IMG/VR virus record: IMGVR_UViG_3300030107_007542
Coordinates: 1 to 30,956 of that record
Length of the DNA stretch: 30,956 nt
Origin: a virus
Strand: one strand, 5' to 3'
In this document: one piece after another, positions 4,602 to 28,774 of the stretch
Layout: each line of letters starts with the position of its first letter
Position numbering within the stretch: the first letter of the stretch is position 1
Made by a program: the position numbers and the translations under genes
Notes under the pieces: model-generated
The model's input: only the letters and a program-made list of their open reading frames with translations
The model's database searches: none
What the model was told of the DNA's origin: nothing

Positions 4602-7600
4602 TTATCCGAGCAGCCTAAGATTGCGTCTGATCGATCGCGTGGAAAATCCCCACGCGGGATCGTAATCTAGCTTACCCATATAAGGACGGTTCAAATGAAT
4701 CCTATCCTTACCCTCTACTATACCCCAACAGCGGAACTTTGTCAACACTGAATTTGAATCAATCACTGCGACGATCCAATAGGGCTTTCCATTCTTTGTC
4801 TTCTTGCGAATGATCTCCCGCGGGATGAACCATACGAGACCGAGTTCCGGGTCGTAATCTGATACAGGCGGGACATAATAGTTCTCCAGTTTCGTCCGTA
4901 CGGCATCAGTCATGACAAGGTGCATCGGAAAGATGCCCGTCAAGGTCGTCTTGTTGTCGATTTCTTCTGCTGTGGTAAAGTCCCCTTCAGGCCGATACTC
5001 CTCGATGTTCTCCAGAAACTTCTTCTTGCTGTACACTCGATCTACAGCGACTGCAGTCCAGAAGTGCTTGCGGCCACTGAAGCGGTCATCCATGAGGTTA
5101 TTCATAGCCCCCGACCGAACCAGCACATCCAGTGCTTTCTTGTTTAGTTTGCTGTACACAATCTCATCATGAAACAGGAACTCCTCAATATTGTTGAAGG
5201 GCCTGTTCGCGACAATTTGTTCGATCGCTGCATCTCCCAATCCTTTGAGTCCCGCAAGCGGCTGGACTAACCTCTTATCATTGTCGGGGTCGATCTCCCA
5301 TACAAACGACGAGGTATTCACATCGGCCTCTACAATCTCAAAGCCGTTCTGCTTCGCAATGTTGATTGCCTTCTCCTTGCGCTTCTCTGGTTCCTTGTCG
5401 AGGAACGACGCCATCCATTCTACCGGATAGTAATTGTAGAGCCACGCGCACTGGAACGAGATTGCCGAGTATGAGATTGCGTGTGACTTATTGAAACCGT
5501 AACCCGAGAAGTACTCGAATCGCTCCCACATATCCTCGGCCTCGCTGTGGCGAATGCCCTTCTCCACGCAACCGTTGATAAACTTTTGTTTGAGCTTGTT
5601 CTTGACTCGTGCTCCCTTACCTGTTCCCTTCTTGGTCAACACCTTGCGGAGCATGTTGCCCTCGTCTAGTGTCAACCCCTTCCCAAGCCTATGCGCAAGC
5701 AGCGCGATCTGCTCCTGGAAGATGAGGAAGCCGTAGGTCTCCTGAGTTACGTCCTTCACCTGCTCATTGAGGTAATCAATCTCGTGCGGCATACTCTTAG
5801 CTTGAATGTATTGCTCGTGCACATTGGCCGAAAGTGGACCAGGGCGATAGATTGAAGTGATGGCCGAGATATCAACTAGTGACTTCGGCTTTGCGTTCGC
5901 GCAGAATTCCTGTGCCCGCTGTTCCGTAAACTGAAAAATTCCCGCGAAATTTGCTCGCTGAAAAATGTTTCTATACACGGCCTGATCATCAAAGTCGATA
6001 ACATCTGGATGAAGATTCTTATCATAGAATTTCTTAACATCCTCGAACGTAGGTTCTGGAACATTGTGATGTCTCTTCAAGATATGGCGAATTGCACCTT
6101 CGATCATCCGGAGGGTCGAGAGACCCAACAGGTCAAACTTAATAAACCCGAGAGGCTCCAAGTGACGAACGTTCTGTCCTTCGGACCAGGGTGATTGTCG
6201 TACCCCACCCGAACTGATGATCGGCATGTGCTCGTTCAAGTCATCCGCAATCAAGACACCCCCCGCATGGCGGGAGCAGGAACGAACCTGTCCAACAAGC
6301 GCCTCGACGTGTGTCTTGATGTGCGGATACTTTACTAGGAAGCCGCGCAAGGATGGAGATAGTTCCATGACCTCTTCCCAAGTTGGAGTATAAACACCCG
6401 CTTTAATACCGTGCTTTGCTTTCGCTGCAGGCGTAGCTTCGAAGATCATATTTGATGTGACTTTGTTAACTTCAGTAAACTCAATACCATAAAACTTTGA
6501 AATGTCTTTAATCAGGGACTTGAGTTGAAGTGTGTTCCAATTGGATATCGGAACGACGGAGTTCTTCCCCCAATCATCCATAAGCATTTCTTTGAGTTCC
6601 ATGGGTTCAGCAACGTCATAATCAATATCCGGATAGTCCGTTGCATCCTTGCGCAAGAATCTCTCAAAAAGAAGCCCGTACTTAATTGGGTCAATCTGTG
6701 TGATTCCCAATACATAGGCTACCAAGGAGCCTGCAGCCGAGCCGCGGCCAGGGCCAGTCAACTGAACTTCGTTTGCCTTATCGGAGATCGCCTTCATTGT
6801 CAAGAAGTATTTGCTAAATCCGCGGTCCTCAATAACGTCGAGTTCCATCTGGAGGCGATCAGTATACTCCTTATTCTCGTGGAGTCCCCGTTGTCGGAGG
6901 CCCTCAAGCGCATAGTTCACCAAAGCCCCTGCATCCGTGAAGCCCGCGGGGACCACAAAGTCTGGGAGCTTCACGGCGGTATCAGGAACAAAGTCCTCGA
7001 TACGATTGAAAGCGATGTGGTGTGTTTCGGTGATGGAGTTCATCACGAGGTCATCATCATATTCATGACCTCCCACCTTAGAGTAATATTTATAGGCATC
7101 CCACATCTGGTTGCCATTCTTAGGGTAAAGTTCGTACCCAATTTCCTCTACACCCTCGGGTAGTTCAGTGTTGTCTTCGGCCCAAGCCGGGGTTCCCTTA
7201 CCGAGCCAGCCGAGACGCTTATACAGTTCTCGATCCTTCCAAGCCTCGTTGTTGGGGTAATGGCTGTCCGCTGTTGAGATCAGAGTAATATCAAATTCTT
7301 TACAGGTCTCGATGATGTACTGATTAAGCTCATGTTGTTCCGGGATATTATTCCACTGGAGTTCTCCGTACCACCGGTCTCCGAAGACCTCCACAAAGCG
7401 CCGGCTTGTTTCCCTCATCGCCTCGCGTACTGCCTCGGGCCCTTCCTCTCGGTTAGCCCAATAGTTGCCAGCGTAGGGTCCTCCCAAACAAGCAGAGGAT
7501 GCAATGACACCCTCCGAATACTTAGCGAGGAGCTTGTAGTCCACTCGGGGGTAACGATAGAAGTTCTCTTCCTTGTATGATTCCGAGATAAGCTTGAACA

Positions 7601-8042
7601 AGTTGTTCAGGCCTGTCTGATTCTGAGCTAACAAAACCAAGTGGCGGCGGCGGTTCAAAATGTTCTTCACCTCCTTCTTGGAGGCCTCCTCATCTTCAAC
7701 CGTAGCCCCAGACGTGTCTCCTGCCTTTGCGAGTGTCTTCGCAAGCTTAGCGTCTGCCTTAATACGATCGTAGTCTTCGCGCCACTCATCAATAGAAGGC
7801 AGGAAATAAGCCTCGACACCAAAGATCGGCTTAAACTCCTTTCCTTGTGCTTTCATCTTCTGCCAGTGTAAGAACTGGTGTGAAAAGCCATTCATATTCC
7901 CATGGTCTGTTAGAGCTAGTGCCTCTCCACCGTTCTCATAACAAAAGTCCATGTGCTCGTCTGGATACCCGATGGCATCAAAGATAGAACCCGCGACGCT
8001 GTGAGCGTGCAGTCCCACGAAAGGAATCTTTTTGTCTGTCAT
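4602..8042 (-). CDS. dnaE: DNA polymerase III alpha subunit (family C), 1146 aa
   Basis: Bacterial-type replicative polymerase. Residues 1-300 are a PHP domain with metal-site residues that look intact (H12-x-H14, TDHG near 43, GVEAYF, and ADSHY near 260). E. coli DnaE has lost several of these, so Mn/Zn-dependent proofreading is possible here. The palm carries GRGSAAGSLVAYV, then PDIDYD (two catalytic aspartates) and later KFDLLGL with the third. A helix-hairpin-helix/fingers region follows, with GYGFNKSHA and a glycine-rich GLKGLGDAA. The end (residues about 1040-1146) is OB-fold-like; the E. coli-style tau-binding tail appears absent. GGGGAAG precedes the ATG, which overlaps the upstream stop (ATGA). 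Length is normal. Phages carrying DnaE as well as a PolA relative are uncommon. Confidence 0.96.
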   Translation of the reverse strand: MTDKKIPFVGLHAHSVAGSIFDAIGYPDEHMDFCYENGGEALALTDHGNMNGFSHQFLHWQKMKAQGKEFKPIFGVEAYFLPSIDEWREDYDRIKADAKLAKTLAKAGDTSGATVEDEEASKKEVKNILNRRRHLVLLAQNQTGLNNLFKLISESYKEENFYRYPRVDYKLLAKYSEGVIASSACLGGPYAGNYWANREEGPEAVREAMRETSRRFVEVFGDRWYGELQWNNIPEQHELNQYIIETCKEFDITLISTADSHYPNNEAWKDRELYKRLGWLGKGTPAWAEDNTELPEGVEEIGYELYPKNGNQMWDAYKYYSKVGGHEYDDDLVMNSITETHHIAFNRIEDFVPDTAVKLPDFVVPAGFTDAGALVNYALEGLRQRGLHENKEYTDRLQMELDVIEDRGFSKYFLTMKAISDKANEVQLTGPGRGSAAGSLVAYVLGITQIDPIKYGLLFERFLRKDATDYPDIDYDVAEPMELKEMLMDDWGKNSVVPISNWNTLQLKSLIKDISKFYGIEFTEVNKVTSNMIFEATPAAKAKHGIKAGVYTPTWEEVMELSPSLRGFLVKYPHIKTHVEALVGQVRSCSRHAGGVLIADDLNEHMPIISSGGVRQSPWSEGQNVRHLEPLGFIKFDLLGLSTLRMIEGAIRHILKRHHNVPEPTFEDVKKFYDKNLHPDVIDFDDQAVYRNIFQRANFAGIFQFTEQRAQEFCANAKPKSLVDISAITSIYRPGPLSANVHEQYIQAKSMPHEIDYLNEQVKDVTQETYGFLIFQEQIALLAHRLGKGLTLDEGNMLRKVLTKKGTGKGARVKNKLKQKFINGCVEKGIRHSEAEDMWERFEYFSGYGFNKSHAISYSAISFQCAWLYNYYPVEWMASFLDKEPEKRKEKAINIAKQNGFEIVEADVNTSSFVWEIDPDNDKRLVQPLAGLKGLGDAAIEQIVANRPFNNIEEFLFHDEIVYSKLNKKALDVLVRSGAMNNLMDDRFSGRKHFWTAVAVDRVYSKKKFLENIEEYRPEGDFTTAEEIDNKTTLTGIFPMHLVMTDAVRTKLENYYVPPVSDYDPELGLVWFIPREIIRKKTKNGKPYWIVAVIDSNSVLTKFRCWGIVEGKDRIHLNRPYMGKLDYDPAWGFSTRSIRRNLRLLG
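4717..4745 (-). promoter_or_regulatory. Sigma-70 promoter inside 3' end of dnaE
   Basis: TTGACA (4740-4745), 17-base spacer, TATAGT (4717-4722) on the minus strand, about 115 bases before the dnaE stop. Together with 4555-4583 it would double-promote the MORC-like gene. Confidence 0.8.
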
Positions 8043-17650: not shown

Positions 17651-18772
17651 TTATTCTTTATCTACGTCGTAGAAATCCGCTGCGCTTCCTTCGCGAACAT
17701 CAAACTTGCGAATGATCTCTTCATCCATGATCTCGAACACTCGGTTCCTGAACTTCTCATCTTGGAGTTTGGTAACCCAATGTGCGCTTTGAAACTTCTC
17801 TTCGGTGCCGTCCTTGTGAACCAGCGCAAACCAAGCGCCTGCTTGCTTCACGTTGTCGGAGCCCTTAACAGCTTCCAGCCAACTCTCTTGGTCCTGGATA
17901 CCAACGTCATCGGTGCCCCAAAGGATCTTGAACGCACAGTTGCGTCCCTGTGTGCCAAAGCGAGACTTCTCCAACTTCACCTTCACCTCGGAGCCGATGC
18001 GGAAGCCGCTCTCGTCTTCAATGAAAGCCGACTTCGCCTTACGCCCCGTCAGCCAGATGCGCAGAGAATATACATAATGCATAGCCTTTCCGCCTGGAGT
18101 GATAAACGGTGTCGTCATTGCGACGATGCGTGCGTTCGGTCCCTGGGGAATATTAGTCTTTAGCTGGTTAAGAACCAGGAAGGCTGACTTAGTATTCGCG
18201 ATGGGGATAGTGAGTTTGGACATTCCCTTTGAGAGAATGCGCGCCTTCATTGCCATGGTGGATTGGGGATTAAAGTCCCCTTCCACATCGGAGACGGTAG
18301 GAGTCAGAGCCAACGAATCCCAAATAAACAGGGTTCTTTCGGCGCCCGAATTAAGGACGCTTTCCACTGTTTCTAGAACGTGTTCCACCGATTGGGCCTG
18401 GACATAGATCAGATCATCTAGATTACATCCGGTTCGTTCCAGGAATCCTGGGTCAATCGCTGACTCTGAATCCATATATACCACCGTCATGCCCTTTTTC
18501 TGGGCATTGGCTGCACACTGCGCGGCCATGAAAGACTTGCCGGTGGATTCAAGACCTGCAATCTCCGTGAACTTGCCGACGGGAATGCCCGCAAGTTGGC
18601 CGCGGCAGACAATAGAATCCAACCACCGAGAACCGGTGGGGATCCATTCTGTTACTTCTGTAGGATTTGCTTCCTTCAGATTGTGGGCGACTTCCACCCC
18701 TGATGTTTTATTGATTAGTGTGCGCAATCCCTCAATGGAGATCTTGCCTGCCTTTGATTTACTTTTTGCCAT
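17651..18772 (-). CDS. uvsX: UvsX/RecA-family recombinase, 373 aa
   Basis: ATP-dependent strand-exchange protein for recombination-dependent replication and repair. Walker A GLESTGKS at residues 73-80, the catalytic Glu in MDSESAIDP (E103), Walker B LFIWDS (148-153), and the VLNQLKTNI segment with a following Gly-rich loop. ITPGGKAMHYVYSLRIWL corresponds to the RecA L2/GGxALKFYAS region. The C-terminal region (residues about 290-373) is phage-specific and acidic. GGAGG is five bases before the ATG. It overlaps the end of the small membrane gene by 14 bases. The promoter at 18990-19018 should drive both. RecA and UvsX cannot be separated by eye; the phage context and the gp32-type SSB favour UvsX. 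Confidence 0.95.
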   Translation of the reverse strand: MAKSKSKAGKISIEGLRTLINKTSGVEVAHNLKEANPTEVTEWIPTGSRWLDSIVCRGQLAGIPVGKFTEIAGLESTGKSFMAAQCAANAQKKGMTVVYMDSESAIDPGFLERTGCNLDDLIYVQAQSVEHVLETVESVLNSGAERTLFIWDSLALTPTVSDVEGDFNPQSTMAMKARILSKGMSKLTIPIANTKSAFLVLNQLKTNIPQGPNARIVAMTTPFITPGGKAMHYVYSLRIWLTGRKAKSAFIEDESGFRIGSEVKVKLEKSRFGTQGRNCAFKILWGTDDVGIQDQESWLEAVKGSDNVKQAGAWFALVHKDGTEEKFQSAHWVTKLQDEKFRNRVFEIMDEEIIRKFDVREGSAADFYDVDKE

Positions 18773-19950: not shown

Positions 19951-20721
19951 TTAGAGAGCGCCAAGCTCTGCGAAAGCGGCATCTACGGCATTAGCTTCGC
20001 CGTCCTTGTTGCCATACTTCGTGGTCTCGCTGCTAACAGTCTCGGGGTCATCAACCTGAGAGTTAACAAACGTATCCAGAATCGTCTGCACATCGGCAGT
20101 CGTCTTTCGCTCAAACAGACCAGAAAACTCTGGGATACTGTCCAAAAGCTCCGCGCACTTGTCGGGCGTCAGATCCTCACAGAGAGGGGACGAACGGCGA
20201 CGGGGCACGAGCTTCGTCTGCGGGAAGGAAGCCCCGGGAGGCTTTCCGTAAGTCATGGTGAGATCGGTACCAGTCTCGGTATCAGTGATATCACCATACT
20301 CCGGGTTCAGCACGAGCGTCAGAAGGTTCTCATAGGCAGTCTTGCCATACCCCCACACGCGTACTCCCTTTTCTTCTTCGCCACGAACCATGACGGGGCT
20401 GAAGAACCGCTGTCGAACAAACAGAGACTTTGCAGTCTTCTTGCTATGCTCATCGTTGTTATCGACTCCTTCGCGCCACAGCTGCGACGCAAATTCACAC
20501 ACGGGACACTCGTCGCCGTAGTTGCGCTTGGGGCAAAGGAAGCCACCCTTCTCGATATTGTAATGAAACCACATCTCCTTGAAGGGGTCTCCGTCCGGGG
20601 TTGGGACGATGCGAATATCTTGGTCCCCATCCTCGGGGCGCCAGAAAGTGTCATTTGAGGAGTTTCCGTCTCCACGTAGTGACGAGAGCTTTTCCCTCAT
20701 CTTGTCTAAATTGATACCCAT
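19951..20721 (-). CDS. gp32-like single-stranded DNA-binding protein, 256 aa
   Basis: Coats single-stranded DNA at the replication fork and works with UvsX. Features match T4 gp32: a basic N-terminus (MGINLDKMREKLSSLRG) for cooperativity, then FWRPEDGDQDIRIVPTPDG and the zinc site. Ligands are H53, C63, C72 and C75 (YGDECPVCEF), the same His-Cys3 order and near-identical spacing as gp32 (H64, C77, C87, C90). The aromatic OB-fold core follows (RQRFFSPVMVRG, VRVWGYGKTAYENLL). The C-terminus is acidic (DDPETVSSE, then DAAFAELGAL), as needed for partner binding. The start MGINL has TAAGGAG eight bases upstream; a longer version from 20760 lacks a ribosome site. Confidence 0.9.
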   Translation of the reverse strand: MGINLDKMREKLSSLRGDGNSSNDTFWRPEDGDQDIRIVPTPDGDPFKEMWFHYNIEKGGFLCPKRNYGDECPVCEFASQLWREGVDNNDEHSKKTAKSLFVRQRFFSPVMVRGEEEKGVRVWGYGKTAYENLLTLVLNPEYGDITDTETGTDLTMTYGKPPGASFPQTKLVPRRRSSPLCEDLTPDKCAELLDSIPEFSGLFERKTTADVQTILDTFVNSQVDDPETVSSETTKYGNKDGEANAVDAAFAELGAL

Positions 20722-20748: not shown

Positions 20749-20772
20749 ACGATCAGCCAATATCCTGATCGT
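20749..20772 (-). repeat. 8-bp perfect inverted repeat at end of tubulin-like gene
   Basis: ACGATCAG (20749-20756) and CTGATCGT (20765-20772) flank an 8-base loop. It overlaps the last codons of the tubulin-like gene, 27 bases before the SSB start. It is followed by TACTTTAA on the minus strand, too poor for a clear terminator. An RNA hairpin or an operator for SSB (gp32 is autoregulated in T4 through its leader RNA) are possible readings. Confidence 0.4.
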
Positions 20773-21604
20773 CTAAAAATTCTATATATGATTGTACCAT
20801 AGAGGAATACTGAATGCAATAACAATATTTCTGTTCGTAAGTGGTTTTAAAAACGCCGTATGAAATATTGACACCCTCATTAAGCCTCGACTTAACGAAG
20901 GTGGTAATTTTTTGGAATAGTGTTGTGTCTTCTTCAAGGTCCGCTTCATTAATACCATAATAGTATACCATGTCTCGCGGCTTTTTCAAGTCATAAAACC
21001 ACTTTTCCGTCTCTTCCTCCACGTCCAACACCCCCACAGTCGCGATACGACTTAGCTCTGAAGGTGTTATGAAATTACCGATAATTGGTTCGGAATTTTT
21101 AAAAACGTTAATCATGTGAAGGGTATTAACGAGGGCCTGATTGAGAACATCAAAGTATCCCATGATTGGCACCTCGCCAATCCCCTTCTCGATAAGTATA
21201 TTGTCCACCAGTATCATGCACTCAAGGAGCCCCGAGCGGGCATACTCTTGAAGTACATTTCGTACAACACGCTCCTGCATTTTTTGCGTCTCGCTTACCA
21301 GATCCAAGTCCGGCTGTACGTACAGTACGGTGATGCGGTTATTCTGAAGCTGCTCCAGAAGCCTTAGGATGCCACCGGAAATCTGTCCGCTTCCGCCCAC
21401 TACGACCACCACATCCTCGTTAGTAAACTTAAGCTTACGCTTTAACGAAGGAAAGTGCTGTTCATAGTCTTCATGGCTATCTCTCTTGCGAATTGTGATA
21501 TCAGCATCTTTGTGTATATCAATACCCCATGTTTCGTACTGAGGATACTTTGAAAACACCCTGGCTATCTGACAACCAGCTTTGCCGAGTCCCACAATCT
21601 TCAT
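20753..21604 (-). CDS. Divergent FtsZ/tubulin-superfamily protein, 283 aa
   Basis: The N-terminus MKIVGLGKAGCQIA matches the FtsZ/TubZ T1 loop (GVGGAGG). A second Gly-rich element VVVVVGGSGQISGG (residues 65-78) sits where the tubulin signature GGGTGSG (T4) lies. The next strand and helix (NRITVLYVQPDLDLVSETQKM) follow the FtsZ pattern V-VVTRPF-FEG--R, with LECMILVDNILIEK for the D-LIVIPNDRLLE segment, then a helix like the FtsZ core helix. T4 is eroded (GGSGQ) and the T7 loop (GNFITPSELSRI) lacks the usual catalytic Asp, so GTP hydrolysis may be lost or altered. It is shorter than FtsZ and PhuZ. GGAAGAG precedes ATG, which follows the upstream stop. It could form a filament, or have been repurposed. 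Fold assignment is by eye. Confidence 0.7.
   Translation of the reverse strand: MKIVGLGKAGCQIARVFSKYPQYETWGIDIHKDADITIRKRDSHEDYEQHFPSLKRKLKFTNEDVVVVVGGSGQISGGILRLLEQLQNNRITVLYVQPDLDLVSETQKMQERVVRNVLQEYARSGLLECMILVDNILIEKGIGEVPIMGYFDVLNQALVNTLHMINVFKNSEPIIGNFITPSELSRIATVGVLDVEEETEKWFYDLKKPRDMVYYYGINEADLEEDTTLFQKITTFVKSRLNEGVNISYGVFKTTYEQKYCYCIQYSSMVQSYIEFLDDQDIG
20791..20819 (-). promoter_or_regulatory. Candidate promoter upstream of SSB (weak -35)
   Basis: TTGCAT (20814-20819), 17-base spacer, TACAAT (20791-20796) on the minus strand in the 3' end of the tubulin-like gene. Only the -10 is strong. Confidence 0.4.
20962..20989 (-). promoter_or_regulatory. Candidate sigma-70 promoter inside tubulin-like gene
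   Basis: TTGAAA (20984-20989), 16-base spacer, TATACT (20962-20967) on the minus strand. It would drive SSB and the Hc1-like gene with a long leader. It is the only listed candidate whose spacer is not 17. Confidence 0.5.
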
Positions 21605-21925
21605 TTACTCTTCCGCCCATTCCAAAAGGTAACCCATGTCAAACGAGCCGCGCGTAATGCGCTTAGAAATCTGGGCTGCTTGAATCGAGGATTCACCTAG
21701 GGCCAGACGGGCACACAAAAAGTCAAGGATTTCCCGAATATCAGCCGCCTCTTCAACGCATGGCTCCTTCACAAACTCCTGCACCTCCTCGCGCAACTTC
21801 TTTAGCGCAAAGCGGGTGAGATCCTCGCCGCGGATCTGACGGACACTAAAGTCTTTCCCAGCATCCGTAATAATCTCTGGAATCCGGTCGCGGACAAGCT
21901 TATAATATAGCTTCTTCTGCTTCAT
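21605..21925 (-). CDS. MazG-like NTP pyrophosphohydrolase family protein, 106 aa
   Basis: The start KLYYKLVRDRIPEII is the signature of the all-alpha NTP pyrophosphatase subgroup annotated as phosphoribosyl-ATP pyrophosphohydrolase-like. The helical core shows KLREEVQEF and EEAADIREILDFL, i.e. E-E-x-x-E and E-x-x-D metal ligands. Expected role: hydrolysing a nucleoside triphosphate (house-cleaning or ppGpp/NTP pool modulation in phage). The start ATG overlaps the upstream stop (ATGA) with GGAG 8 bases before. A longer version from 22009 would read into the previous gene. Confidence 0.85.
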   Translation of the reverse strand: MKQKKLYYKLVRDRIPEIITDAGKDFSVRQIRGEDLTRFALKKLREEVQEFVKEPCVEEAADIREILDFLCARLALGESSIQAAQISKRITRGSFDMGYLLEWAEE

Positions 21926-22191
21926 CGTTGCTTCTCCACTAGGCTCAGTCCTCTCAAGCGGTTCTTCTGAGGTTGGACATCTTCTGAGTATGCCACGAGA
22001 TATCCCCACAGATCCGCCATTGTTAAATCTTCAATGTCGCAGTTGTATGAGATCGCAGCTCTCTCGATGGCTTGCATGAGTCCGTCGGACACGAGTCCCG
22101 CGGCGCCATCAATGGTATAGGGCTGATACTTGCTTTTTACTTCCGGCACATGATAGCGGGATAAGCTTAAGTCTGGTTTGTCATATTTCAT
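21922..22191 (-). CDS. Uncharacterised small protein, 89 aa
   Basis: Not recognised. Begins MKYDKPDLSLSRYHVPEVKS, has a helical acidic middle (AIERAAISYNCDIEDLTMADLWGYL), and ends basic (PQKNRLRGLSLVEKQR). It overlaps both the family A polymerase (ATGA at 22188-22191) and the MazG-like gene (ATGA at 21922-21925), so it is translated in a coupled row. A consensus promoter lies 60 bases ahead, inside the polymerase gene. A DNA polymerase accessory role would fit position only. Confidence 0.7.
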   Translation of the reverse strand: MKYDKPDLSLSRYHVPEVKSKYQPYTIDGAAGLVSDGLMQAIERAAISYNCDIEDLTMADLWGYLVAYSEDVQPQKNRLRGLSLVEKQR

Positions 22192-23387
22192 AATTTTAAT
22201 TCCTTCATTGCTCCGAGGTTCCTTCCAGCGGAGACATTAACCTTGAACATATTATAACGTGTCTTCTTGAACGTGTCAAGTAAATTTAATATTTCGTAGC
22301 GATCCTCTTCAGCGAGGTCGATGTACACAGCGTCGTGAATAAGAAATGCGATGTGGCTTTTTCTCCCCTTCAAAAGCTCGTAGACTTTATAAGCCTGCTC
22401 GTGCACCATATCGATTGTGGTGCTTTGAACGATGTAATTAAGAGCATGATGCTCGTCTACGTTCTCTATTATTCTACCATAATCTGTCGTAATTTTACAG
22501 CCATCCCAGTACTTATTTCTCACTAAATTTTTGTTATAAAGACGCTCTAACTGCTTGTTTTCCTTATTAGAATAGAGCCACGCGAACGTCTTTACTTTGG
22601 CCTCTTCTCGCGTCAGCCCCCCCTCAAAAATGTTCTTCACATTCCAATCATGAATGTCGTTTGAAGGCTGGGTCACTCCGGCGAGGGCCAGCAGCACTCG
22701 AAGCTCAGCGGCATTAAAATCTAATTCCAGAAACCAATCATTTTGAGCTACCACGCACGGGCGAAACTCTTTATTCATGGTAAGAATTGGGAAACTGTTT
22801 GCATTGGCAGCTAACCTACCTGTAACTGTGCCCCATGGGTTATAATCACACACGGGCCGCACAGTTTGCAATGTGCGTAAAAAGTTCTTTCCCCTAACTG
22901 AGCCCAATAAGTGGTTTATGGGAGTGATGTCCAGACTGAGGGGCCTTTCTTTTATGTCTGCTAACATCTCAACCAGCCGATACATTCCGTCATAATTTGC
23001 AGGCCGCGCACAGGTGTCTAGGACATGAGCGGTTATCTTATTTTTGGCATGCAAATATTGAAAGAGAAAATATTCGGGAATAAGGTCGTACAAGCAATTT
23101 TCAGACAACGCTATTTGGGAAGTAGTAAAAGCCTTAAGGCACGACTTCAAAGTTTTCTTAATCTGATCCCATTCCTCTCGCAAACGAGGGGGACACGCTT
23201 CAGTCAACGTTGCTCCTTGGGCATAAATTTGACCCAACTCATACAGATGCCCCGGGAGGCGCGTGCTGTACTCCCAAGTCTGTCCCGACATCGGAAGGGC
23301 GCCCGTACCGTTAATAAAATTATCTACATAGTACCCAGCACATTCGGCCTTGGTGTCGAGAAGTTGAAACAAAGGTGCTTCAGTCAT
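22188..23387 (-). CDS. Short family A DNA polymerase (PolA-like), 399 aa
   Basis: Only the polymerase module is present; there is no 5'-nuclease and no 3'-5' exonuclease domain. Motif A region: GTVTGRLAANANSFPILT, followed by ELDFNAAELRVLLALAG (aspartate in the D-F-x-x-x-E-L-R pattern). Motif B: REEAKVKTFAWLYS, keeping R, K, F and Y of the R-x3-K-x3-F-x3-YG helix but with Ser for the last Gly. Motif C: FLIHDAVYIDL, where the usual HDE is HDA; the key Asp remains. I start at the ATG at 23387 (MTEAPLF), because it is 6 bases after the -10 box; a TTG further up (23405) would fall in the promoter. Perhaps a gap-filling or repair polymerase beside DnaE. Confidence 0.88.
   Translation of the reverse strand: MTEAPLFQLLDTKAECAGYYVDNFINGTGALPMSGQTWEYSTRLPGHLYELGQIYAQGATLTEACPPRLREEWDQIKKTLKSCLKAFTTSQIALSENCLYDLIPEYFLFQYLHAKNKITAHVLDTCARPANYDGMYRLVEMLADIKERPLSLDITPINHLLGSVRGKNFLRTLQTVRPVCDYNPWGTVTGRLAANANSFPILTMNKEFRPCVVAQNDWFLELDFNAAELRVLLALAGVTQPSNDIHDWNVKNIFEGGLTREEAKVKTFAWLYSNKENKQLERLYNKNLVRNKYWDGCKITTDYGRIIENVDEHHALNYIVQSTTIDMVHEQAYKVYELLKGRKSHIAFLIHDAVYIDLAEEDRYEILNLLDTFKKTRYNMFKVNVSAGRNLGAMKELKL
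22251..22279 (-). promoter_or_regulatory. Perfect-consensus sigma-70 promoter inside polymerase gene
   Basis: TTGACA (22274-22279), 17-base spacer, TATAAT (22251-22256) on the minus strand: both hexamers are exact. It should drive the 89-residue gene, MazG-like and tubulin-like genes. Confidence 0.92.
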
Positions 23388-23393
23388 AGAACA

Positions 23394-23422
23394 AGGATAT
23401 CTCAAATAAAAAAGAAAGTCAA
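23394..23422 (-). promoter_or_regulatory. Sigma-70 promoter for leaderless polymerase gene
   Basis: TTGACT (23417-23422), 17-base spacer, TATCCT (23394-23399) on the minus strand, six bases before the ATG at 23387. It lies in the short gap after the 439-residue gene and marks the change from virion genes to replication genes. Confidence 0.75.
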
Positions 23423-23423
23423 C

Positions 23424-24743
23424 CTATTTTTTAAAGGCTTTATTGGGGCTTCGGTGGGCGCCGGAAGTCTTGGATTTCCTAGGCGATACTCCTGTAAGTT
23501 GAGATATGTTCTCTGGATAAATAAACTTTCTGTACCGGTAGTTTACCTCGCGGGCAACCCGCTGAAAAGGAGTCAATGGACTATCCGGCATTTTTAAAGT
23601 ATACAAATTATAAACCATGCGTTTAAGGCGCGCAACCTGGTCAGGTGTGTAGCCGTTGCGCGACTCCAGCTGCCGCAAATCAATATAAAGATCTATTAAA
23701 AATTGAGGATCCAATTCCGCCAGGAGGCCCTCCTTATCGTACTTCTGGCGCTCTTCGGTATGGTAACAGAATGTGCCATCATCAGAAATATGCTCTATCT
23801 GATAGAGCGGCGACGAGGCGACCAACAACCGATACGCCTCAACAAACATATTAGACAAATCCTCAATATCACCTCGGTACGTAGGAGTGTAATAAACATC
23901 AAAAAAGTTATCCCGCGTGATCGGGTCACCCGTTGTTCCCACTACATAATTGTCCACATGAACCATTATAGCTGGCGAAAATAGGTCCGCTGTTAAAATC
24001 CAAGGCTGGTTCTTATCTACCACAAACCCATACTTTTTGGCTGCGCGACTATAAAAAGTAAAATTAGGATCATTAATAAACTTTTCATATTTAATTTTGT
24101 CATCTGCTGCATCCGCATTAGCAATTGCAATTGAAAGACCACTACAGAGGGGGTCCATACCGTACGTCAGAACGTAAGAAGTCTTAGTTATGGGAAACAG
24201 TGAAACAAGGCCTTTTAAATAAGCACTATAATATTTAACAAACGTTTGAAAGTTGTTAATGGGCGCCGCTACAGGCGCCTGGAAAGATTCAGCGAAGTGC
24301 TCGCTCAGGGCAGCATGAAATTCTCGGTACTGCTGTGTCGGATCGCGATAGGCTCGGCGCGGAGTAGGCTTAATAAGGTCTGGATTTCCTTCTGTGGTAA
24401 CCGCCCGGACCATGACCGCGTTGGCCATGTGGTCGGCGAACTTTGCGTATGCATCACTGACGAAATTTAGTGCAAAAAGGGGCTCTTTAGCATTGGGGAG
24501 CTGGACCAAATCGCTGGTTTTAGGAATAATAGTATTTTGTCTGCTATCGACGCGTCCGAACAAGTTTCGTTTATACCAAGTGTCGAGAGGGCGCGCAGCG
24601 AAAGGAGGCTTGGGATATATACGTTCTTTATACAGAGACCTCTGAAACATGGCCGCAAAGGACGAAAGGCCATTGGCCCCCTCTGGGTCCTGCAGGTCGG
24701 CGAGACTGAAGACGAAACCGTTTTTATTGCGTATCTGTGTCAT
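23424..24743 (-). CDS. Probable virion protein, 439 aa
   Basis: Not recognised. Soluble, with many aromatic residues (TWYKRNLFGRV, FYSRAAKKYGF, VEAYRLLVASSPLY) and a very basic C-terminus (PRKSKTSGAHRSPNKAFKK). There is no signal peptide, membrane segment or catalytic motif. It overlaps the 1344-residue gene by ATGA and is the last gene of the tail module, so a baseplate, tail or fibre-attachment component is the likely role. GAGG precedes the ATG. Confidence 0.7.
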   Translation of the reverse strand: MTQIRNKNGFVFSLADLQDPEGANGLSSFAAMFQRSLYKERIYPKPPFAARPLDTWYKRNLFGRVDSRQNTIIPKTSDLVQLPNAKEPLFALNFVSDAYAKFADHMANAVMVRAVTTEGNPDLIKPTPRRAYRDPTQQYREFHAALSEHFAESFQAPVAAPINNFQTFVKYYSAYLKGLVSLFPITKTSYVLTYGMDPLCSGLSIAIANADAADDKIKYEKFINDPNFTFYSRAAKKYGFVVDKNQPWILTADLFSPAIMVHVDNYVVGTTGDPITRDNFFDVYYTPTYRGDIEDLSNMFVEAYRLLVASSPLYQIEHISDDGTFCYHTEERQKYDKEGLLAELDPQFLIDLYIDLRQLESRNGYTPDQVARLKRMVYNLYTLKMPDSPLTPFQRVAREVNYRYRKFIYPENISQLTGVSPRKSKTSGAHRSPNKAFKK

Positions 24744-27700
24744 GGCTCTACCTCATCCTCTTCTCCCGGGAAGGAAGTGCCAGGGCCCTCTGTTGCGTCC
24801 CAATCGATATCCTCATCGGCAAGCTCGCCGCAGAAGTCATCAGGGTGTGCCTCAGGAGGAGGCTCTCGTGGAATCGGGGGGCGCCCATTGATAGATACAA
24901 TTTTGTCATCGTCAGCAGTGTCAAAAGAACTCATCTCTTGCATTGCTTCAACGGTGGTAGTAAAGCCTGCAGGGGAGACCTCATTTCTAACAGCGTTCAC
25001 TAAGAAATAGCCGCCCAAACCAATAAGGCGCGCGATATTGGGAATACCTCCTAGGGCTCGCGAGGAGCCAGCACCGATAGCAATGGGATCGATATAAACA
25101 TAAGTGCCATTTTTGTGGAGAGTGTTGCCAATCATGTCCATGTTGACAGTATACAGCTCTTTGAGCTGTTGGGCGCCTAAAGCGCCATCTTTTGAGATGC
25201 GCGCCTCACGATAAAAGGGCATATCCTGGCGCTGAAAATTGATTTCTTTTGCCAAGCCACAACGACCACCCAAATAATAGTGGTAAATGCCTTCCTGCAA
25301 ATCGGAAATACGGTCACCTGCCCGGGGGCGTGAGTCAACCGAATATATAACAGCTGTAGGAATTGAGGGTCCTTCTTTGCTTTGAAAGGATAGGCGCGCG
25401 CGATCGCGTGCTTGAGCATTTCGCGCCGAGTGTGCCATTTGATCGAGTGTTGCCGAGCAGCCCCGATAACTATTGACCATTTGGAAATTAGATGAGTTAA
25501 AAGTAAGCCTAAATTTAAATATATCTTCGAAGCAGACACTGCTATACGCCTCTGTTATTAGTGCGCTGCACATATCTTTAATAAAGTCTAATAACTTGTA
25601 TGACTCTACCTTCTTTTTAATAATATTGGTCACAAACCATTCATTAAACTTATCCAATGAAATCGGAATGCTTCCAATATTCATATATTCCCAAATTCCA
25701 GAAACTTTACGCACCCGGAAAGGGTCAATCTGGGACAAATGTCGAATCACTTTCTGCTTACCGGCTGGGGCGCCTGGGCAAAAGTACTTAATACTTTTAA
25801 TCTGATACGCCAGCAAAGGATTTATCATTTCTACGTTGCCCAGCACCACCTGCATAGGGGGAGTCCCACTTTCATCTTTCTCTATCAGGTGAGGTAGGCG
25901 GCTGACCAACAAAGCATCAATAAGATCTCCCAGATACATAAAAGGAATAGTAGTCATCCCGGGATCAGTAGCCACGATACCTACATTATCGGCCAGTTGT
26001 TTAAGTCGCGTGTTATCTTCTTGTTGTTTGTCGGCCGCAAGGGCATTGGTGGCGTCGTTGACCTCTAAGTCGCTCGATGTCTGTGCTTTGGTGGTTTGGG
26101 CTTTACTCGCCATCGTAAACTTTCTCTCCAGCTGGACTTTAGCCGCCTCGGCGCGTTCTTCGGGATCCATTTTCCCAAGAGGATTAAGCAACTCTTTAGT
26201 AGGTACTGGGACTGCTCGAACTTTATTGTGCTTTTGGAGTGAGCGCAGGAACTCTTTATATTTGGCAGCCCGGCTTTTCTGCATTAAAACAACTTGCTTT
26301 AATAATAAAGCTTCTTGCTTTTTTTGATACTCGGTTTCTTTGCCCGGGGGAAGGGTGTCACCTCCAGCAGCCAGAAGAGCCGCATTGTGGTCCTCTTCCA
26401 GTTCCGCAAGCTCGTCATCGATTGCAGCAACCGCATCTTCATGTATATCCTTCCCCACAAAAATATCGGCCACTGGGCTACGAGTCAGGCCCGACATTGA
26501 GGCCTGATAATCAATCACCAGTTCGAGGGTTCCATCCTGTTGAAAATTTATGGCATGGCTAACAATCTGAAGAAAGAGTGCTTTACGCGATGCGTCGATG
26601 GCAGCCTTAATATGCTCTAAGTCTTTGGTAGTGTAGCCCGGAATATTCATGTTGGTGAAACCAGGAGGCGTAGACCACCCAGCTATAACCTTAATACGAA
26701 AATTCTCCCCCTTATACTCATTGCTCAGTACATCCTCACAGGGTGCCTTACCATCGCCCGGATCTGATGAGTTGGCCATTTCTGATGTTGGACGTCCTTG
26801 AATTCCGGAGCCGATTATGAGGTCCAAATAGCCGGCTTGGCCAGGAATACCGGCAGCGAATTCTCCAGGCTTATCAGGCCTTTCATTGTGGCGAAATAAA
26901 TCATAAACACTCTGAAAATGCATCGTTAGCTGCGCGCTGATCATGTTATCAACTTCTGCCGGCTGTGTGCCATCGAGGCTCCACGTAAAAGAGGTCATAC
27001 CCGCACCACCTATGCGTCCATACGAGCCGGCGGTAATTTCATTAACATCTCTCTCATCAAGAAAATTACTAAAAGGAATCCGATTTTCAGAAATCGGGGT
27101 TAGACTCGGCTTGCCGTCTGGTGTTTTAAGATAATTGACACGATATAATTCAAAATGAGGAGTCATCAGCGCCCACAAATCAGGGCACATATTCTGTAGC
27201 GTATAGGCTTCCGAGTCTGGGCCTCCTTGGGTGGGAGGCCATACGCCCCCCTTGCCCGGTTGTGGGGCCCCATGATTTAATTTAGAAACGATGTTCCCTG
27301 GTTGTCCGGACTGAATCACCCCTACGTTTTCATAAGTTGTGGTTTCGCGAAGGGCTGCTAGCTGTTGAATATGTTCCAGCAAATAACACTGCACGTTCAT
27401 GGCATGTACTTCGCCCTTTTTCAGCTTCCGCTTGCCAACATTGCGGGGAGGCGGAGGGGTGTAAGAGCGCGGGGAACCACCACCAGGAGTAGGAACAGTT
27501 GGTCCGGGAGGAGTTGGGTCCTGCGCCCCCCATAAAATTTCATACATAATCTGGTCATACCAGCTTTTGCCTGTAGATGTTTTCCACTTACTGCGGCCTA
27601 TAGCCAGAAACATTTCTCGTAAAGCTACCGTAAGGGTCTGGGGGGCCGTGGCTTGAACATGACCTGCTAGCTCCCACAATGAATTTCGAATGTCTGCGTT

Positions 27701-28774
27701 GGCCACCTTTGTGATGGGCGATGTTTTTCCCAGATCGGAGTCTTGGTACGCGGTGAGATTGAGTTCGCCTCGGGCCACGCCGATGCCTGACCAGTTGTTG
27801 CACTTCGTCCACAAAGGCTGGAAGGCGTCTTCGGCGATGCTGTCCGACGTCATATTGCCCAATTCCATAGGATTCCCCACAACTAGCGAAGATGGTCTGC
27901 GGCCTCCTGCGGGTCGGAAATTGCCAACATTCTCGTTAATCACATAGCGAGACTTATATGACTCTCGGTGCTCGCGACCAAAATTGCTGTCGAGTATTTT
28001 ATGGTTTGAGCCGGCAATGCTGTTTTCATAATCTTTCTGTATGACTACACCGTAGGCGAATTCGTTGCTGTTCGGTAAAAGAGCCATCATCGGTACTGTG
28101 TACGCCAAGGGAACAATGTGCTTTTGCTCTTGCCAGCTCATCTCATACACTGTCTCAAGAGTTTTAAAAACCGAATCTACACCGGATCCTCCCGCATTCA
28201 TAATGGTTGACATAAGTACATTAAACGACCGGGGCTTATATACGGGCGATCCATTGATTCCCCAGAACTTAAATTTTTCAGATATAAGCCACAGGCCCGG
28301 CTGTCCTGCTGGCATCTCCATAAACGTTTTAAGGATGGGCTCCATTGTTCTAAACTTGTATCGCTTAGTCCAACCATGAACAAACATTTGTTTGTGTATG
28401 GTGCCGCCGGCGGCAATCTGCGCGTCGGTGAGTTCTGCTGCGTCTTGCCAAAAACTATATTCTCCTTTGCCACTGAGAAATCCTTGACGTACACGGTCAT
28501 ATGCATTTTGAGGTTGCTGCTGTGCGCCGATATTTGTTTGCTCCACAGGGGGCGCAGAGCCAGATTCATGTTCTTGATTAAGTTGGGGGGTGGGAATTTT
28601 AAATTCCGTCTCTTTTTCGAGAGCTTTCTTGTAATTCCAGTCTGCATTGCTGCCGTCTTTGCGCGTACCTTTAGGTTTACTCATATCATGGACAACCGCG
28701 TACAGCGCGCAGGCACGCATAAACTTCTGGGTGTACCAGTCTTTATATTGTTTTTCCCAATTTGTGGAGGTCAT
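24740..28774 (-). CDS. Large tail/baseplate-associated protein, 1344 aa
   Basis: The largest gene in the window; family not recognised. Polar throughout. A Pro/Gly-rich linker near residues 420-440 (PGPTVPTPGGG, then YTPPPPRN) separates two blocks. A charged helical stretch near residues 760-860 (AAIDDELAELEEDHNAALL, EYQKKQEALLLKQVVLMQKS, AKYKEFLRSLQKHNK) is likely coiled coil. The last ~20 residues are strongly acidic (LADEDIDWDATEGPGTSF). It lies between the gp53-like wedge protein and the 439-residue protein, where myophages place baseplate or hub proteins. The ribosome site TGAGG is somewhat distant. Role inferred from position only. Confidence 0.72.
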   Translation of the reverse strand: MTSTNWEKQYKDWYTQKFMRACALYAVVHDMSKPKGTRKDGSNADWNYKKALEKETEFKIPTPQLNQEHESGSAPPVEQTNIGAQQQPQNAYDRVRQGFLSGKGEYSFWQDAAELTDAQIAAGGTIHKQMFVHGWTKRYKFRTMEPILKTFMEMPAGQPGLWLISEKFKFWGINGSPVYKPRSFNVLMSTIMNAGGSGVDSVFKTLETVYEMSWQEQKHIVPLAYTVPMMALLPNSNEFAYGVVIQKDYENSIAGSNHKILDSNFGREHRESYKSRYVINENVGNFRPAGGRRPSSLVVGNPMELGNMTSDSIAEDAFQPLWTKCNNWSGIGVARGELNLTAYQDSDLGKTSPITKVANADIRNSLWELAGHVQATAPQTLTVALREMFLAIGRSKWKTSTGKSWYDQIMYEILWGAQDPTPPGPTVPTPGGGSPRSYTPPPPRNVGKRKLKKGEVHAMNVQCYLLEHIQQLAALRETTTYENVGVIQSGQPGNIVSKLNHGAPQPGKGGVWPPTQGGPDSEAYTLQNMCPDLWALMTPHFELYRVNYLKTPDGKPSLTPISENRIPFSNFLDERDVNEITAGSYGRIGGAGMTSFTWSLDGTQPAEVDNMISAQLTMHFQSVYDLFRHNERPDKPGEFAAGIPGQAGYLDLIIGSGIQGRPTSEMANSSDPGDGKAPCEDVLSNEYKGENFRIKVIAGWSTPPGFTNMNIPGYTTKDLEHIKAAIDASRKALFLQIVSHAINFQQDGTLELVIDYQASMSGLTRSPVADIFVGKDIHEDAVAAIDDELAELEEDHNAALLAAGGDTLPPGKETEYQKKQEALLLKQVVLMQKSRAAKYKEFLRSLQKHNKVRAVPVPTKELLNPLGKMDPEERAEAAKVQLERKFTMASKAQTTKAQTSSDLEVNDATNALAADKQQEDNTRLKQLADNVGIVATDPGMTTIPFMYLGDLIDALLVSRLPHLIEKDESGTPPMQVVLGNVEMINPLLAYQIKSIKYFCPGAPAGKQKVIRHLSQIDPFRVRKVSGIWEYMNIGSIPISLDKFNEWFVTNIIKKKVESYKLLDFIKDMCSALITEAYSSVCFEDIFKFRLTFNSSNFQMVNSYRGCSATLDQMAHSARNAQARDRARLSFQSKEGPSIPTAVIYSVDSRPRAGDRISDLQEGIYHYYLGGRCGLAKEINFQRQDMPFYREARISKDGALGAQQLKELYTVNMDMIGNTLHKNGTYVYIDPIAIGAGSSRALGGIPNIARLIGLGGYFLVNAVRNEVSPAGFTTTVEAMQEMSSFDTADDDKIVSINGRPPIPREPPPEAHPDDFCGELADEDIDWDATEGPGTSFPGEEDEVEP

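Follow-up and report, generated by a model that had tools for sequence, protein, structure and literature searches.

What does a phage do with a protein of the tubulin/FtsZ fold when its gene is embedded among replication genes and the catalytic residues of the fold are missing? Known phage relatives of tubulin are GTPases that form dynamic filaments. The question is raised by one open reading frame in the stretch of DNA analyzed here (the window), which comprises bases 1 to 30,956 of a 193,778-bp viral record. An earlier note had read this frame as a divergent, shortened and possibly non-hydrolysing member of the tubulin/FtsZ fold from a possibly undescribed family, encoded between a MazG-like enzyme and a gp32-like single-stranded DNA-binding protein (SSB), and had suggested that it could organise phage DNA or inhibit host FtsZ. 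The frame lies exactly where it had been placed, begins with ATG, encodes 283 amino acids and occurs as a single copy within the record. The genes that matter for the argument are the following.

20753 to 21604, minus strand: gene of the predicted FtsZ-fold protein (open reading frame, family alignment, predicted structure, Foldseek).
19951 to 20721, minus strand: gp32-like SSB gene, the downstream neighbour (Pfam gp32, 1.6e-14; PHROG SSB, 2.7e-21).
17651 to 18772, minus strand: UvsX/RecA recombinase gene, which lies farther downstream within this module.
21605 to 21928, minus strand: small upstream gene, present in most of the window's clade and absent in many distant members.
22188 to 23405, minus strand: gene of a family A DNA polymerase domain of about 400 amino acids, the upstream neighbour (PF00476, 2.4e-13).

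With the window protein as query 127 relatives were found in IMG/VR, with identities of 56-90% among the 80 matches listed. Comparison of the window gene with its closest relative, L001, gave dN 0.058 and dS 0.94 (dN/dS about 0.06, YN00), and values for the gene were in the range of about 0.05-0.12. Since the gene is carried by 127 stretches and evolves under a dN/dS of about 0.06, 20753-21604 is no chance frame. A query consisting of a divergent SSB gene alone, with no part of the target in it, retrieved phages whose SSB is just 54-58% identical and which encode, upstream of it, a protein of about 280 amino acids with the motifs HMINVF, YYYGI and SYGIYxTxY and without the T4 glycines. New queries with these proteins led to family members as low as 28% identity. 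In total the IMG/VR relatives are well over 150, the lowest identity being 27%, and their carriers form a large and diverse phage group, widespread in metagenomes, mostly uncultured and mainly marine. In the joint alignment (A5) the members are 27-75% identical to the window protein, and motifs were surveyed in 45 diverse members.

Sequence databases do not recognize this family. No match of the window protein exceeded the threshold in Pfam, PHROGs, NCBIfam or PDB sequences, and a tblastn search of 50,697 phage records with it and three divergent members gave no credible match, in agreement with the proposal that the family is undescribed. Among 37 family members none matched the Tubulin/FtsZ GTPase domain (PF00091), FtsZ_C or TubZ_C_2 (PF22334); as positive controls FtsZ matched PF00091 at 8e-52, and phiKZ PhuZ, unlike the family, matched both PF00091 (5e-7) and TubZ_C_2 (1.7e-37). 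In profile-profile comparisons the hhalign E-values were 0.086 or 0.042 against FtsZ profiles and 0.0015 or 0.005 against PhuZ profiles, the latter over the N-terminal third only, and none was significant. FtsZ from every group sampled had no detectable sequence likeness to the family. Despite its non-significance the alignment with FtsZ (A1) is collinear, pairing T1 with T1, T4 with T4 and N135 with N165.

As sequence profiles alone fail to see the fold, the FtsZ assignment comes from structure prediction. The AlphaFold2 model of the window protein, obtained from a 50-sequence alignment, had a mean pLDDT of 90.6 and a pTM of 0.89, and its best 50 Foldseek matches in the PDB were all FtsZ, TubZ or CetZ. 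The earlier note had named a different Rossmann fold without a match to tubulins as what would refute it, and this check came out in its favour. The best single match by E-value (2.0e-12) was the TubZ of Bacillus plasmids and phages (2xka_C), compared with which the family is much smaller and lacks the catalytic loop and the H11 extension. Among viral models the best match was A0A6J5RW92, annotated 'FtsZ', from an uncultured Caudovirales (E 1.6e-12, TMq 0.75), a protein of 452 amino acids against the 283 of the window protein, compared with it by fold; PhuZ/tubulin-like proteins were among the next. A second model, of the divergent L205 protein, which is 28% identical and has no nucleotide motifs, reached a pLDDT of 92.1 and matched FtsZ best (E 4.7e-12), although the alignments behind the two models overlap in part, so that the models are not fully independent. 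Tubulin, too, is among the top matches of the models. The PDB matches of both had TM-scores of about 0.6-0.7 over essentially the full length (305-373 alignment columns in most rows), and the matched span takes in the C-terminal domain. The FtsZ-like order of strands and helices that had been noticed in the sequence is recovered in the window model as S1-H1-S2-(H2)-S3-H3-S4-H4-S5-H6-H7-...-S8-H10-S9-S10, followed by one short helix at residues 271-278. Neither model has an H11-like C-terminal extension or a long tail, and both end soon after S10. By its predicted structure the protein is a member of the tubulin/FtsZ superfamily, reduced in size as had been supposed, with two domains joined by the core helix H7. 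It might be objected that the FtsZ match is misleading and that this is a generic Rossmann protein. The sole recurrent Pfam hint, TrkA_N, and the non-significant hhalign results speak for this; the TrkA_N matches are weak (6 of 37 members, best E 2.9e-5; 13.2 bits in the window protein, below the gathering score of 23.8) and short, and one member aligns by another part of the protein. However, two models of proteins only 28% identical both match FtsZ-type structures best, and do so across a C-terminal domain that dehydrogenases lack, which makes the objection very improbable.

The model and the alignments allow the motifs of the fold to be located, as follows.

21572 to 21592, minus strand: T1-like loop GLGKAGC, residues 5-11, kept in the window's clade (alignments).
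21371 to 21397, minus strand: T4-like loop GGSGQISGG, residues 70-78, consensus GxGxISGG in the window's clade.
21230 to 21250, minus strand: QEYARSG, residues 119-125, at the C-terminal end of helix H4, the most conserved stretch family-wide.
21200 to 21202, minus strand: N135, aligned with E. coli FtsZ N165 (T6, guanine contact).
21140 to 21142, minus strand: N155 in the central helix H7, aligned with guanine-facing FtsZ H7 residues (alignments).
21044 to 21097, minus strand: T7-equivalent segment NSEPIIGNFITPSELSRI, residues 170-187, without the catalytic acidic residues and without H8.
20951 to 20968, minus strand: VYYYGI of strand S8, residues 213-218 (model and alignments).

Both glycine loops singled out by the earlier note are thus present, but the T4-like one is not, as that note had it, at the distance found in FtsZ: 66 residues separate the first T1 glycine (G5) from G71, against 86 between G17 and the profile-aligned G103 of E. 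coli FtsZ, which would leave the T2-T3 region about 20 residues shorter than that of FtsZ. The FtsZ signature GGGTGTG is not present: the window's clade has GxGxISGG, and other clades have lost the motif. The window and its clade keep both guanine-contact asparagines (N135 and N155), together with GxGxxG and an acidic residue after strand 2. Nucleotide binding has probably been retained in their pocket, and the ligand may have a structural or regulatory part. Elsewhere parts of the pocket are lost. T1 is absent from L170/L172, L198/L199 and L204/L205; T4 from L169-L173, L186, L195-L199, L201, L204, L205 and L207; and both asparagines from L195-L199, L201, L204 and L205. Hence L195-L197 and L201 have lost T4 and the asparagines, and L198/L199 and L204/L205, the latter the most divergent pair, have lost T1 as well. 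Independent changes in T4 and the asparagines are few. Several lineages probably bind no nucleotide. Selection persists in those without a pocket, with dN/dS of 0.076/1.12 (about 0.07) for L204/L205 and 0.108/0.915 (about 0.12) for L198/L199.

The T7 loop, which had been called degraded, is altered more deeply than that term implies. The catalytic NxDxxD occurs in none of the 45 diverse members and helix H8 is missing from both models; at the T7 position the window's clade has a different conserved motif, EPxxGxFxxPxxxxRI. Without NxDxxD canonical T7-driven hydrolysis is impossible for the family, and the protein is very probably non-hydrolysing, as had been suspected. The strongest conservation lies outside the nucleotide motifs: Q119, R123 and S124 are invariant in 45 of 45 sequences, and the mean conservation percentile is 92 for QEYARSG and 83 for YYYGI, while T4 and the T7 segment reach 48 and 45.

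The position of the gene is fixed. In the window's clade the order is polA, small gene, FtsZ-fold gene, SSB, recA and exonuclease wherever there is room to see it: at the loci with room the SSB gene was found in 106/106, polA in 87/87, recA in 73/73 and the exonuclease gene in 43/43. Exonuclease, helicase and ribonucleotide reductase (RNR) genes follow recA further downstream. The same order, extended to the helicase gene, is also seen in divergent members, many of which lack the small gene and some of which have an insertion ahead of SSB. With the SSB-only query the FtsZ-fold gene was upstream at 37 of 40 loci, and the other three have just 4, 84 and 553 bp of sequence upstream. In most loci the gene begins inside the preceding gene or directly next to it (-13, -4, -1 or up to +2 nt). 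The gp32-like nature of the downstream neighbour was borne out. Searches of Pfam, PHROGs, NCBIfam and PDB sequences did not support the MazG-like identity proposed for the small upstream gene. Related replication modules with other genes in the slot occur in Microcystis phage Mel-JY01, Flavobacterium phage immuto, SPO1, a 484-kb uncultured phage and a Lysinibacillus phage; the occupant in Mel-JY01 (L129, 4568-5851) has an S-adenosylmethionine lyase-like domain (Pfam 4.4e-10).

Some further observations were made in these loci. L056 has an apparent DNA methyltransferase gene, judged from sequence only, between the FtsZ-fold and SSB genes, and at the same place L177 has a 579-aa frame (289-2025) whose N-terminus resembles by eye a GHKL-type ATPase. 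Besides its separate family A domain of about 400 amino acids (22188-23405), the window encodes a DnaE-like polymerase at 4602-8042 (phrog_405, 1.2e-225), and at 24740-28774 a 1344-aa protein with no match in Pfam or PHROGs, syntenic family-wide with 24-57% identity. The only genome match of the family, a chromosomal copy in a WOR-3 MAG (L210, CP070664.1), was considered as a clue to the host and rejected: it is a probable mis-scaffold, as the phage replication fragment lies between two 100-N gaps and its recA is truncated.

Given a fixed place in the operon and a pocket that several clades do without, a structural component is a likelier role than a motor. We infer that GTP hydrolysis has been lost and that the protein would be made together with the family A polymerase and/or the gp32-like SSB and would probably bind one or both; the operon position suggests such a contact. 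In the window's clade the pocket would still hold a nucleotide as structural or regulatory ligand, and in several distant clades nucleotide binding would be gone, with the fold, the operon place and purifying selection remaining. That the FtsZ-fold protein, without hydrolysing GTP, has a structural, scaffolding role in the machinery of phage replication is a proposal to which we would give an even chance.

Other roles have to be weighed against the same facts. The two suggested by the earlier note, a DNA-organising filament and an inhibitor of host FtsZ, gained no support here. The protein could build a cytomotive or stable filament like those of PhuZ or TubZ, polymerising with GTP, hydrolysing it slowly or by replaced residues, and positioning or segregating the replicating phage DNA. 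The fold shared with TubZ and FtsZ, the PhuZ/tubulin-like models among the viral matches, the T1/T4 loops and asparagines of the window's clade and the location inside a replication operon would all fit such a filament. It is unlikely nonetheless, because the T7 acids are absent in all members and H8 is missing, because the pocket is gone in several clades that remain under purifying selection, and because the models have no H11-like extension; in PhuZ, polymerisation involves H11 and the C-terminal tail (PMC3678025). In the 193,778-bp record neither phiKZ gp54 (the nucleus shell protein, chimallin) nor the PhuZ profile found a match, in searches that had no positive control and in a record that is possibly a fragment. 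Mutation of the T7 loop does not necessarily keep FtsZ from polymerising, and the window's clade keeps the T1, T4 and asparagine set, so that nucleotide-driven assembly may occur in that clade.

An action on the host is also conceivable: the protein would mimic an FtsZ subunit and cap or poison host filaments, stopping division during infection. An FtsZ-like fold that lacks the T7 face would be suited to capping, and phage division inhibitors are known in general, e.g. lambda Kil (PMC3961180). Yet the nucleotide face, the would-be contact with host FtsZ, is not conserved family-wide, the gene is fixed within a replication operon and no sampled FtsZ group is detectably similar in sequence, and we regard an antagonist of host FtsZ as improbable. 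We consider equally improbable a nucleotide sensor or regulator, whose pocket would take up GTP, dGTP or a dinucleotide and inform the polymerase of the nucleotide supply. Such a sensor would fit the window's clade, with its GxGxxG and its acidic residue after strand 2, as well as the weak TrkA_N matches and the polymerase and RNR genes nearby, but it is at odds with the loss of the pocket in several clades, with the short and, in one member, differently placed TrkA_N match, and with a full-length fold that is that of FtsZ and not of a dehydrogenase; the unconfirmed MazG identity of the small gene also takes away from it.

The 3' end of the gene carries a signal of another kind.

20749 to 20772, minus strand: hairpin ACGATCAG-loop-CTGATCGT over the 3' end of the FtsZ-fold gene, just before the SSB ribosome-binding site.

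In alignment A7 its 8-bp stem is paired in 99.7% of cells, with compensatory changes in 4 of 8 pairs; TACTYTARCCCAA comes after the hairpin, just before the SSB ribosome-binding site, and a search of Rfam with the hairpin gave no match. The mRNA of T4 gp32 has an autoregulatory site, and by analogy the hairpin is possibly an autoregulatory site of the SSB; it may also be a DNA operator. In L002, L004-L008, L020 and L050 a compensatory change converts CAG into TAG, and the FtsZ-fold protein is four residues shorter. A conserved DDQDI tail considered as an FtsZ-type C-terminal peptide was rejected, as it coincides with the conserved hairpin: the compensatory change that makes a TAG stop in several phages places the constraint on the nucleic acid and not on the peptide. 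Amber readthrough at the TAG was dropped for the same reason.

The family is best filed as undescribed and new within the tubulin/FtsZ fold; a search of the open-access literature found no paper describing it. With bacterial and archaeal FtsZ it shares the two-domain fold, the central H7 and the strand-helix order and, in the window's clade, the T1-like and T4-like loops and guanine-contact asparagine. It differs from FtsZ in matching neither PF00091 nor FtsZ_C, in lacking the T7 NxDxxD and H8, in its core size and shorter T2-T3 region, and in its place in a phage replication operon. Like PhuZ and TubZ of phiKZ-like jumbo phages it is a phage-encoded protein of the tubulin superfamily. A cellular precedent for a degenerate FtsZ, likened here by its published description, is Nmar_1262 of Nitrosopumilus maritimus, a homologue without the GTP-binding motif and T7 loop that did not polymerise in yeast (PMC3684127); unlike the phage family, it is a cellular archaeal gene without a link to a replication operon. 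FtsZl1 and FtsZl2, divergent FtsZ-tubulin families found by genome context and implicated in membrane remodelling in bacteria and archaea, come from a paper whose text does not mention phages (PMC2875224), nor are phages mentioned in a 2023 overview of FtsZ/tubulin evolution (PMC9871819).

A broader interpretation, which we advance tentatively and as less than probable, is that a fold of the tubulin superfamily has become a component of a DNA replication machine, one that is obligatory and needs no nucleotide, with the intermediates (pocket kept, half lost and gone) present in living phages. To our knowledge no such use exists for any tubulin or FtsZ relative. The family offers a natural series in which to ask what the FtsZ fold does without GTP, and it puts a name to a likely core replication protein of phages that have no cultured representative in the 50,697 records. 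In these phages an ancient cytoskeletal fold seems to have found a new use, as a structural component in the replication of viral DNA.
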